Positions 19,621 to 56,656 of a DNA stretch of 64,000 nucleotides are shown piece after piece (the stretch's first letter is position 1; the number at the start of each line of letters is the position of its first letter). The stretch lies in the NCBI RefSeq assembly GCF_009937955.1, contig NZ_AP018439.1:4712001-4776000 (forward strand), written 5' to 3'. The notes under the pieces are model-generated. The model saw nothing but the letters and a program-made list of their open reading frames with translations, did no database searches and had not been told where the DNA came from. Source of the DNA: Undibacterium sp. KW1. Its GTDB lineage: Bacteria > Pseudomonadota > Gammaproteobacteria > Burkholderiales > Burkholderiaceae_D. The translations under genes were made by a program, and so were the position numbers.

Positions 19621-20346
19621 ATGAGCAACATGAATTTTGCAATCGAGACGAAGTATGAACACGGTGGCGGCTATGGCATCAATGAAGGTGAATTGCTGTA
19701 CGCGCTCAGGAAAAAGAGCAAATTAACGATGCTCAAGATCGTCATCCACGATGTCTCGCTGTGGTCTGTGCTGGTCAGCTTGTTCTTCTGGGGGCCGCTG
19801 CTGTGGAGTCTGATGCTGTATCCAGCTTTTGTGATCCTGGCTCTGGTGCTGCGCAATTTCATCGACATGCCAAATTCAGACATTAATATGTACGCTGTCT
19901 CACTGGCCTATGCGACTGGCGTCTGGCTGTCGCTGCGCAAGCAAACCCCGGTGCGTGATTACATGACCAGGAAGCAGCATGCCGCCACCAAGACCCTGCA
20001 TCTCGATTGCAGCCAGAAGCTGCTGGTGGCAGAAGAAGCCTATCGGTTTTTCCCCGCAAAAAACCGCACAGTGAAAGTGCCGTTTGAGCACATGCACACC
20101 TGGGTGACCTGGCAGCAGGCTGATAAAGAACGGGCAGATGATGATAGCTATCTGGATTCCGTCAGCATCTATCTCAGAATCAGACGCAACAGCCGCCTCG
20201 ACATGGACTGGGCCAACAAAAAAATCGGCGACCCGGTTTTTTATCATCAGTACGATAGCAGTGATGCCACGCAGAGTGCGCAGGCAAAAGCGAAGTTTGA
20301 TGAAGTCATGGCTTTGTTTGCGGATTGTGGCATAGAGCAGAAATGA
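19621..20346 (+). CDS. Hypothetical membrane protein
   Basis: The 241-residue protein has a soluble N-terminus, two or three hydrophobic segments (about 45-80 and 90-105), and a soluble C-terminal half with many charged residues (QADKERADDDSYLD). No family was recognised. AAGG six bases before the ATG supports the start. It ends about 100 bp before IS copy 1 and is intact. Confidence 0.55.
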   Translation: MSNMNFAIETKYEHGGGYGINEGELLYALRKKSKLTMLKIVIHDVSLWSVLVSLFFWGPLLWSLMLYPAFVILALVLRNFIDMPNSDINMYAVSLAYATGVWLSLRKQTPVRDYMTRKQHAATKTLHLDCSQKLLVAEEAYRFFPAKNRTVKVPFEHMHTWVTWQQADKERADDDSYLDSVSIYLRIRRNSRLDMDWANKKIGDPVFYHQYDSSDATQSAQAKAKFDEVMALFADCGIEQK

Positions 20347-20525
20347 AATTGCCAGATTTTTTTGGGTCAGGCCAAATTTATTGTGCCAAAAAAGCACAGA
20401 GAACATCCGTTGCCATCAAATGATCCCTGGCTTGTAGGGTAATGAAATGGACGCCCCCCTCCCAAACGGCATCGTGATGTGCCAAAGTAGAGTTTCGACA
20501 AACTACTTAACAGAAGGGAAGCGTC

Positions 20526-21566
20526 ATGGAAAAGATTACCGTAATTGGGTTGGATTTGGCAAAGAGTATTTTTCAAGTTCATGGTGCCAATGCCCGAGGC
20601 AAGAAGCTCCTGTCGAAGAAACTCAAGCGTAGCGAAGTCATGGGATTCTTTGCATCACAGCCACCGTGCCTGGTAGGGATGGAAGCCTGCGGAGGAGCTC
20701 ACGAATGGGCGCGGCAGATCCAGTCACTTGGGCATGATGTCAAACTGATGGCACCCCAGTACGTCAAAGGCTTTGTACAAGGAAACAAGACCGATGCCAG
20801 AGATGCCGCAGGTATCGCAGAAGCAGCAGTAAGAGAAAGTATCCAGAGAGTGACGATACGCAGCCGTGAAGAACAACAGATACAAGCCCTGCACAGAGTA
20901 AGAGAAGCCTGGGTCAAACACCGTACTGCGACCGCCAACCAGATACGGGGCCTGCTCGCTGAGTTTGGTCAGATACTCACTCCCGGCCTGCGCCACCTGC
21001 GCCGTGAAGTCGCCCTCTGGCAAGAGCAAAGCCGCGGCATGCTCGGCATACTCAACGGCCTGGTCGATGAGTTACTGCAGTATCTCAGTGAGTTAGAAGA
21101 AAGAATTGGTCAAGTAGAGAAACAGATCAAACAAGTACTGCAAAGCAATCCCGCCTGCAAACTGATAGAAACCATCCCCGGCGTAGGCGTCCTCACCGCC
21201 ACCGCCATCATCGGCAGCTTTGGACGGGCAGAGAACTTTACAGAAGGACGCAAGTTTGCCAATGCCCTGGGGCTGACACCGAGGGAACACAGCAGTGGTG
21301 GCAAACAAGTTCTGCTGGGGCTCAGCAAGCGAGGCAATGGTTATGTACGCAAACTCCTCGTCCATGGGGCCAGGTCCGTCTTGCAGGCCAGGATCAACAA
21401 ACCGGCCTATGCCGAAGACTGGGTCGTAAAACTGGCCAAAAGGCGGGGACACAACATCGCCGTGTGCGCTCTGGCAGCCAAGAATGCCAGGAGGATCTGG
21501 GCGATGCTGCAGAGCGGAGAAGTATTCCGTGCTGATCATGCGCAGACCAACGACGTCTGCACATGA
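20526..21566 (+). CDS. IS110-family transposase (copy 1)
   Basis: This is a 346-residue DEDD recombinase. The N-terminal RuvC-like domain holds Asp9 or 10 in VIGLDLAKS, Glu in VGMEACGG near 60, and the Asp pair in NKTDARDAAG near 90. The C-terminal Tnp20 domain has the IPGVG helix-hairpin-helix near 200 and SSGGKQVLLGLSKRGN near 250, whose serine is the catalytic nucleophile of the family. It works with an RNA encoded in the element to choose donor and target. GGGAAG lies upstream of the ATG. The protein is identical to that of copy 2, so both are probably functional and recently moved. Confidence 0.93.
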   Translation: MEKITVIGLDLAKSIFQVHGANARGKKLLSKKLKRSEVMGFFASQPPCLVGMEACGGAHEWARQIQSLGHDVKLMAPQYVKGFVQGNKTDARDAAGIAEAAVRESIQRVTIRSREEQQIQALHRVREAWVKHRTATANQIRGLLAEFGQILTPGLRHLRREVALWQEQSRGMLGILNGLVDELLQYLSELEERIGQVEKQIKQVLQSNPACKLIETIPGVGVLTATAIIGSFGRAENFTEGRKFANALGLTPREHSSGGKQVLLGLSKRGNGYVRKLLVHGARSVLQARINKPAYAEDWVVKLAKRRGHNIAVCALAAKNARRIWAMLQSGEVFRADHAQTNDVCT

Positions 21567-21737
21567 TCAGCACGGTTTGAAAGAACAGTAGCAACCACAA
21601 AGCAGGGGCGAGGCAGGAAGCCAGGTGAAGTAAAAACGTCATGCAGTAGCAGGAAAAATAGCAGCAAAGACAAAGAAACGGAGCACACCACCGATTGTTT
21701 GGGCAAACTCAAATGAAGACAGGACAGGTCAGACCGG

Positions 21738-21865
21738 GATGGTCAATAGCTCGTTCGGCGCACTGTGCGATCAGCACGATAGGGTGATTGAGCGACCATC
21801 AGCGTATTTCATCATGCGTCAGCAGTCATCAAGCGGCTGCAATAAAGACCGAATGTATGGCTGCA
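21738..21865 (+). ncRNA. Candidate bridge (seek) RNA core of IS copy 1
   Basis: A stem GATGGTC / GACCATC (21738-21744, 21794-21800) plus GCTC / GAGC encloses an internal loop. Its 5' side carries GGCGCA (21757-21762) and its 3' side TAGGGTG (21780-21786), with an apical GTGC-GATCA-GCAC hairpin between. TAGGGTG equals the REP sequence left of the insertion plus TG, and GGCGCA is complementary to TGCGCC on the right. Further on, ATTTCATCA (21806-21814) complements the left end of the element and ATGTATG (21853-21859) equals its right end plus TG. All four segments meet at the same TG core. IS1111-group bridge RNAs are known to lie in this right end; the exact RNA ends are not determined. Confidence 0.75.
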
Positions 21866-21989
21866 ATCGACTATGTCAGGTTTAATTTGAAAATGCTCTT
21901 GCAAATGGGGGGCGTCCATGTATGCGTTTCAACGCACCATCTCGTTAACCATCACGGATGCGATGAATAACGGTGAGTCAAGATGCACT

Positions 21990-22439
21990 CTACTTTCCGA
22001 CACCAGAAATCCACCGGGCTCCGTCGATTTCGATAAAAACATCATTTTGTAAAACTTTATTCTCCAAATCGCTTAAAGCAACAATGTAAGCAAGACCAGG
22101 ACAATGAAAAGTCAACAAATCAATATTCTGTTTGGCGAATTGAAGTGTGCATATCAAGCCTGGCTGTGATCCACTGAATATCACAGCTACATAAGTAAAC
22201 ACCCCCAAACGGGTGCTACTGACAAACAACTCTGTTTCTTCATCACTGACTTCATTCCAAGCTAATTTTTTGGCATTTGGTATATTTTTCCAATCAAGCC
22301 TGACTCCAGAAATATGCCAAGGATAATTTGCTTCCACATGAGCGGCAAACTGAGCGCACAAATCTTGCTCAAGTATGCTTGCGGTGCCATTTTCCAGCAG
22401 CTCTCGATTTTTGGGTAAATCAACGATTAAAGCGGCCAT
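21990..22439 (-). CDS. Hypothetical protein
   Basis: The 149-residue soluble protein has no signal peptide and no recognised family; it reads MAALIVDLPKNREL and ends in ARWISGVGK. The composition and position (a lone gene surrounded by REPs, next to an IS) resemble orphan accessory genes. ATG at 22439 is preferred to an in-frame TTG at 22454, though neither has a strong Shine-Dalgarno. Its 3' end is about 70 bp from the IS right end, and the gene appears complete. Confidence 0.5.
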   Translation of the reverse strand: MAALIVDLPKNRELLENGTASILEQDLCAQFAAHVEANYPWHISGVRLDWKNIPNAKKLAWNEVSDEETELFVSSTRLGVFTYVAVIFSGSQPGLICTLQFAKQNIDLLTFHCPGLAYIVALSDLENKVLQNDVFIEIDGARWISGVGK

Positions 22440-39290: not shown

Positions 39291-39524
39291 ATTGTTCCTT
39301 ATCTGTTATTGAATGGGTGATGCAGGTTTTTGCAGCGCAGGAGAGATGTGATATCGCGCATGACGATGCGCTCTGCAATCGCTTGTTGTAGGGTGCGCCG
39401 TGCGCACCAGGTGTTGATTTGGATAGTAAAAATTGGATGGGGACGGATGAAGATATGGGATGGTGCGTTACAACGCATACCCTACTCCATAGCCTATGTG
39501 CAGGGTGCGCGTATTTGCCCGAAT

Positions 39525-56208: not shown

Positions 56209-56379
56209 TCAGCACGGTTTGAAAGAACAGTAGCAACCACAAAGCAGGGGCGAGGCAGGAAGCCAGGTGAAGTAAAAACGTCATGCAGTAGCAGGAAAAA
56301 TAGCAGCAAAGACAAAGAAACGGAGCACACCACCGATTGTTTGGGCAAACTCAAATGAAGACAGGACAGGTCAGACCGG

Positions 56380-56507
56380 GATGGTCAATAGCTCGTTCGG
56401 CGCACTGTGCGATCAGCACGATAGGGTGATTGAGCGACCATCAGCGTATTTCATCATGCGTCAGCAGTCATCAAGCGGCTGCAATAAAGACCGAATGTAT
56501 GGCTGCA
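56380..56507 (+). ncRNA. Candidate bridge RNA core of IS copy 2
   Basis: The sequence is identical to the candidate in copy 1. The target guide TAGGGTG is at 56422-56428 and the donor guides at 56448-56456 and 56495-56501. For this copy the right target (TGCGCC) pairs perfectly with GGCGCA, while copy 1 has TGCGTT, needing two G-T wobbles. Confidence 0.75.
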
Positions 56508-56656
56508 ATCGACTATGTCAGGTTTAATTTGAAAATGCTCTTGCAAATGGGGGGCGTCCATGTATGCGCCGTGCGCACCAACTTTGAATGACGAAAGTGC
56601 TTGCGTGATGAAAGCCGGTGCGCATGGCGCCCCCCGCGAAGTAGTACAGCCATTGT

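Follow-up and report, generated by a model that had tools for sequence, protein, structure and literature searches.

What is encoded in the long non-coding right end of this insertion sequence, and how does the element find the sites at which it is inserted? The preliminary description of the locus had proposed a bridge RNA that programs insertion into GTAG-headed REPs, and this proposal is supported by covariation between guides and targets and by the REP-like nature of the targets. On the strength of sequence comparisons, we consider it highly probable that the region encodes a bridge (seek) RNA belonging to an autonomous element of the IS1111 type, with guides that read the REP target. The features are collected in Table 1; "the window" denotes the whole 64,000-nucleotide stretch of DNA that was analysed.

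Table 1. Features of the insertion sequence, its predicted RNA and its target (window coordinates unless a locus is named).
Feature	Position	Strand	Basis or remark
Whole insertion sequence, IS1111 type, 1483 bp	20440..21922	+	7/3 rule, four copies, joined flanks against relative
Left part of target REP, GTAGGG	20434..20439	+	
Left terminal extension TAATGAA, 7 bp	20440..20446	+	
Left subterminal inverted repeat ATGGACGCCCCCC	20447..20459	+	
Transposase gene, 346 aa	20526..21566	+	PF01548 and PF02371, NF033542
Predicted bridge/seek RNA region	21720..21879	+	covariance model R1, 103.2 bits
Target-loop stem, 5' side, GATGGTC	21738..21744	+	covarying pairs, with 21794-21800
Right target guide CGGCGCA, complement of TGCGCCG	21756..21762	+	
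Left target guide TAGGGTG, target left side and core	21780..21786	+	
Target-loop stem, 3' side, GACCATC	21794..21800	+	covarying pairs
Left donor segment ATTTCATCA, complement of (TG)ATGAAAT	21806..21814	+	
Right donor segment ATGTATG, right end and target core	21853..21859	+	
Right subterminal inverted repeat GGGGGGCGTCCAT	21907..21919	+	
Right terminal extension GTA, 3 bp	21920..21922	+	
Right part of target REP, TGCGTTTCAACGCACC, variant of TGCGCC...	21923..21938	+	
Same predicted RNA in the window's second element copy	56362..56521	+	103.2 bits
REP-associated tyrosine transposase gene, 181 aa	L123 409-954	minus	facing GTAGGGTGCGYY pairs on either side

Judged from its sequence, the element is an autonomous member of the IS1111 type, every testable feature of which was found. 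Its layout reads GTAGGG/TAATGAA-ATGGACGCCCCCC ... GGGGGGCGTCCAT-GTA/TGCGTTT (here and below, the slash marks the insertion point). The subterminal inverted repeats (11–13 bp in IS1111 elements) match at 13/13 positions in three genomic copies and at 12/13 in the fourth, and the left and right extensions are present without target duplication; extensions of 7 bp and 3 bp outside the subterminal inverted repeats are described for IS1111 elements in the available part of the seekRNA report (PMC11187229). The transposase gene is the single intact gene of the element and is followed on its 3' side by 356 nt of non-coding right end, the long downstream non-coding region of the type. Its translation matched NF033542 (NCBIfam, IS110 family RNA-guided transposase) with 334.8 bits and contains GLTPREHSSG, which fits the IS1111 motif GL-P----S(T)G, and the length fits the expected ~330–350 aa. 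By these family matches, length and motif, the transposase is assigned to the DEDD (RuvC-like) type. A 75-residue transposase fragment with 96% identity was found at a contig end in Undibacterium hunanense, where it stops at GTA/TGCGCC; this fragment aside, the closest transposases encoded in the genomes and plasmids that were searched are ~50% identical over their full length.

Four copies of the element were found in the genome, with 359-nt right ends that are 100% identical among all. In a repeat-to-repeat comparison (1469 bp), two copies differ from the window copy by 2 and 3 bases, and the fourth has a left repeat one C shorter. All four were observed in the same orientation, with GTAGGG/TAATGAA at the left and GTA/TGCG at the right, as is typical of IS1111 elements, which use one orientation and one target. 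The right flank continues as TGCGCC at three copies and as TGCGTT at the window copy (TGCGTTT, 21923–21929). Thus, the earlier statement that GGCGCA complements TGCGCC to the right of the element holds for the three other copies but not for the window copy, and comparison of the guides with the flanks of every copy yielded GTAGGG/TGCG at four of four but TGCGCC at three only; at the window copy, the right guide would therefore pair with two G·T wobbles. This guide had been placed correctly (GGCGCA, 21757–21762), but it is one base longer, CGGCGCA. The joined flanks of all four copies were found to align across the join to a same-genus genome (G027) with nothing lost or gained, the counterpart sites reading GTAGGG/TG at three and GTAGGG/CG at one. 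Insertion was therefore clean, and the TA at the left end, correctly seen in the preliminary description to stand in place of TG opposite ATTTCATCA, is element sequence. A search of G027 for the transposase returned a best E value of 1.3e-8, with 10 of 17 candidates scored. Beside one IS copy, a short stretch (L011, ~469–503) recurs at dozens of positions across five genomes of the genus and is apparently another dispersed repeat.

Positions 21725–21870 gave a predicted fold with a z score of −2.9, 1 of 200 shuffled sequences being at least as stable. Alignment A1 comprises 22 elements, namely the window element and 21 relatives with transposase identities of 39–52%. The consensus fold, obtained from this alignment alone, contains a stem whose apical hairpin separates the two target guides, with the target-loop stem as in the single fold, and a multiloop that two invariant G-C pairs close around both donor segments. 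The hairpin of GATGGTC and GACCATC around a two-sided loop is present in both the single and the consensus folds, at the place where it had been described. In the consensus fold, 92.3% of 636 cells are paired and 21 of 29 pairs are changed on both sides. Covariation was calculated to be 0.562, against 0.179 (sd 0.015) for shuffled alignments, of which 0 of 500 were as high, and ≤0.108 for slid versions, over which the fold has an advantage because RNAalifold picked it on this same alignment. The inner donor stem of the window element has C-C at its second pair, a point against the bridge-RNA reading. An Rfam search of the 64-kb window found no family at its gathering score. The covariance model built from A1 gave 33 matches at E ≤ 1 over the window and 32 loci, the two weakest with E values of 0.048 and 0.96; the 103.2-bit match of 21720–21879 arises by construction, because a copy of the same element (L013) is among the 22 of the model.

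Do the guides follow the target? The 65 loci examined comprise 53 that come from other genomes or plasmids and 12 views of the genome's own four copies. By the finder used, 19 of the 53 lack a canonical subterminal repeat, and 21 of the 34 left entered A1 with one own copy. The near duplicates L054 and L055 and the loci with divergent RNAs (L024–L030, L034, L039, L040 and L041) were left out of A1, a choice made for alignability after the guide search, and the excluded loci include some without clear guides. An unconstrained guide search over the whole non-coding region of 36 elements was noisy, with the own target unequalled in 15 of 36 and at least one foreign target scoring as high in 21 of 36 (worst in L041, L039, L022, L029, L024, L012, which is the window copy, and L028), and was therefore replaced by a test in fixed columns. 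In the fixed-column test of the 22 elements, the guides were found to match their own target at 186 of 242 letters, the best of 100,000 shuffles reaching 115. With a register slack of one base, allowed to own and foreign targets alike, the match was 204 of 220 letters against ≤139, and the own target ranked first in all 22 elements, in 19 of them without a tie. For example, L064 carries TACACCA...CGAATCTG and has the target CGAATC/TGGTGTA, and L051 carries GAGCGAA...GTCGCTT and has the target GTCGC/TTCGCTC. The weakest guides are the left guides of L048 (2/5) and L019 (3/5) and the right guide of L022 (3/5).

Since the rows of A1 had been chosen after the guides were seen, a held-out test was run. 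The A1 covariance model matched 62 (own genome included) of 274 genomes of the class at E ≤ 1e-4, and the 29 best-scoring new loci among the matches were fetched. Eighteen were dropped by rule, 4 in which no repeat was found and 14 with a repeat not starting with ATGGAC, some of these 14 looking genuine, and 11 were used. In these 11, the guides match their own target at 82 of 110 letters, whereas 100,000 shuffles averaged 46.9 and reached 70 at most; here as in the 22-element test, shuffling treats the partly related elements as independent. The right half of L100, which ends two bases past the element, was left unscored. The own target ranked first in all 11 elements, in 8 of them without a tie.

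The guide letters therefore change with the target among relatives, as in IS1111 seekRNAs and bridge RNAs. The preliminary description had made its proposal depend on whether relatives with other targets keep TAGGGTG and GGCGCA; at the same two places of the fold, they carry other letters, matching their own different targets. These letters also bear on another account of the locus, according to which the REP-like letters are a REP remnant captured in the right end that has no guide role, the transposase recognising REP DNA itself. Capture would fit the presence in the RNA of CGGCGCAC and TAGGGTG, both also found in REP, and the abundance of REPs in the genome (82 GTAGGGTGCGYY sites against 5 for the reversed control). 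However, the letters at these places vary with the target among the relatives, and the guides stand in the order of IS1111 seekRNAs, the complement of the right half first and the left half second, flanking the insertion point. We regard capture as very improbable and retain the guide reading. In terms of exact letters, the REP target scores 14/14 against the non-coding region of the element; among 4755 random 12-mers of the window, 23 scored 13 and one scored 14, the latter being itself a REP copy at 39389. The window copy's own flank has an ordinary score of 11, reached also by 1652 of the 4755, and the case therefore rests on the other copies and the relatives.

The targets of the element are REP-like, being GTAG-headed palindromes present in many copies and having an associated tyrosine transposase gene. 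The GTAGGGTGCGYY sites often form facing pairs, roughly 50–70 bp apart. The tyrosine-transposase family PF01797 has 12 matches in the genome, and the weakest (23.1 bits) is the 181-aa gene of Table 1, a REP-associated tyrosine transposase according to NCBIfam NF047646 (194.8 bits). Within ~0.85 Mb of the 6.69-Mb genome (G000 C1, 4.23–5.08 Mb, window included) lie 59 of the 82 sites and also three of the four IS copies. Other IS1111-type elements were observed after GTAGNN in L024, L025, L029, L099 and L107, at GTAGGG/CG (twice), GTAGGG/TG, GTAGCC/CG and GTAGGT/TG, and the left guide is TAGNN in all five; separate IS1111-type lineages may have come to target REP heads repeatedly. The right flanks of L039, L040 and L041 contain GTTAGG, which resembles the ends of integron attC sites.

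Does the RNA also read the ends of the element? The segments first described as the right end plus TG (ATGTATG) and as the left side of the target plus TG (TAGGGTG) were both confirmed at their positions. Over the 22 elements, the right donor segment agrees with 109 of 110 right-end letters (shuffles ≤105) and with 40 of 44 letters of the target core (shuffles ≤38); its core equals the target core in 19 of 22, the cores TG, CG, TT, AG and GA being covered. The left donor segment matches at 100 of 110 letters (shuffles ≤99), and barely exceeds the shuffles because the element ends are conserved. From the seekRNA view, the RNA would act only through its target loop, ATTTCATCA and ATGTATG being structural, and recognition of the ends would depend on the inverted repeats and on the target DNA that flanks them. 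The near invariance of the left donor segment would suit this view, as would the movement of ISEc11, for which an 82-nt seekRNA suffices and flanking target is required, as stated in the accessible text of PMC11187229. It is nevertheless unlikely, considering that the right donor segment tracks both the right-end letters and the target core and that both donor segments are located inside one multiloop of the consensus fold. A donor loop is favoured, but not proved.

All four segments had been described as converging on one TG core. This assumption has to be revised, as the left end carries TA. Among the 22 aligned elements, the left end and the target agree at core position 1 in 19 of 22; at position 2, the left end has A in 22 of 22 and the target G in 20 of 22, with agreement in 1 of 22. 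The split is less marked in the more distant held-out set, where 7 of 11 elements carry the left-end A and 5 of 11 show agreement between left end and target at position 2. Joining GTA to TAATGAA gives TATAAT, with a 16-bp spacer after TTGCAA (4/6 to consensus). Scored by the −10 and −35 consensus letters, of which the third −10 base is tolerant, the junction −10 box of 30 elements matches at a mean of 5.3/6, against 4.37 with the target dinucleotide, the left-end dinucleotide being better in 26, equal in 4 and worse in 0. The best junction −35 box averages 4.27/6, against 2.86 with shuffled right ends. In scans of 20300–22100, no promoter-like site was found on the + strand; two promoter-like sites (1.2 expected) and two terminator-like sites (2.2 expected) were found, all on the minus strand. 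Expression therefore rests on the putative circle. Promoters created by circle junctions are described in the available sections of two papers (PMC11187229; PMC11208160).

The left-end A occupies position 4 of the junction −10 box and would be retained for that reason, and we infer that this explains the difference between A at the left end and G in the target. That donor and target share no two-base core in this clade, with the left-end A held by the circle-junction promoter (TA/NAAT), is a tentative reading to which we give somewhat less than an even chance. If it is true, a single base serves both the recombination site and the −10 box, and strand exchange has to proceed with a shared core of one base or through a heteroduplex with a mismatch, which perhaps gives insertion its direction. 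As far as our searches show, the difference at core position 2 between the left end (A) and the target and guides (G) in this clade is modestly new, no mention of it having been found in the literature texts searched; it may be visible in Extended Data Fig. 10c of PMC11208160.

Overall, the bridge RNA would work as follows. By its sequence, the RNA has two parts: a target loop, in which CGGCGCA corresponds to the right half and TAGGGTG to the left half of the REP TAGGG-TG-CGCCG, and a multiloop, in which ATTTCATCA corresponds to the left end and ATGTATG to the right end with the target core. By analogy with experimentally studied relatives, the transposase would bind the RNA, the target and the circle junction would be paired around the core, and the element would be inserted without duplication. 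Circularisation would join GTA to TAATGAA and so form the TATAAT promoter, from which the transposase gene and then the RNA would be transcribed.

How does this element compare with known systems? Insertion into REPs by ISPa11, ISPpu9, ISPpu10 and others was described in 2006, as the accessible part of that paper indicates (PMC1525189). In the available text of Durrant et al., bridge RNAs are predicted for 93.0% of IS1111 elements; most of these RNAs lie in the right end, and many have potential donor letters in a multiloop (PMC11208160). REP-targeting IS1111 elements with such RNAs are already published: ISPa11, an IS1111 family element found in Pseudomonas aeruginosa REPs, likewise combines a downstream non-coding RNA with a REP target, and its RNA is described as co-purifying with the transposase (PMC11187229, available part). 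ISPa11 belongs to another host group, and the likeness is drawn from its description rather than from sequence letters. The seekRNAs of ISEc11 and ISXne4 similarly place the top-strand complement before the bottom-strand match, and the letters of their guides change along with the target among relatives (PMC11187229, available part); unlike the present element, ISEc11 has a short linear target and no REP, by the same source. The closest solved structure by sequence is the ISCro4 transposase (PDB 9t56, E 2.1e-14), a likeness that concerns the protein only and lies mainly in the C-terminal residues 189–337. The transposase of IS621 (IS110 group; PDB 8wt6) is also related (E 1.6e-11), and the IS621 bridge RNA likewise has a target and a donor loop around a core. 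As described in the sources at hand, however, IS621 carries its RNA in the left end, has a subterminal repeat of only 2–3 bp, and shows a CT core that is highly conserved in donor and target alike, whereas here the left end has TA and the target TG. Because every testable IS1111 feature is present, the element would be expected to work like the published seek/bridge RNAs. To these systems it contributes a REP-targeting IS1111 element documented in detail, a comparative data set that allows both target guides and one donor segment to be read straight from genome sequences, and, in the difference between the donor and target cores, a concrete testable question on strand exchange by these enzymes.
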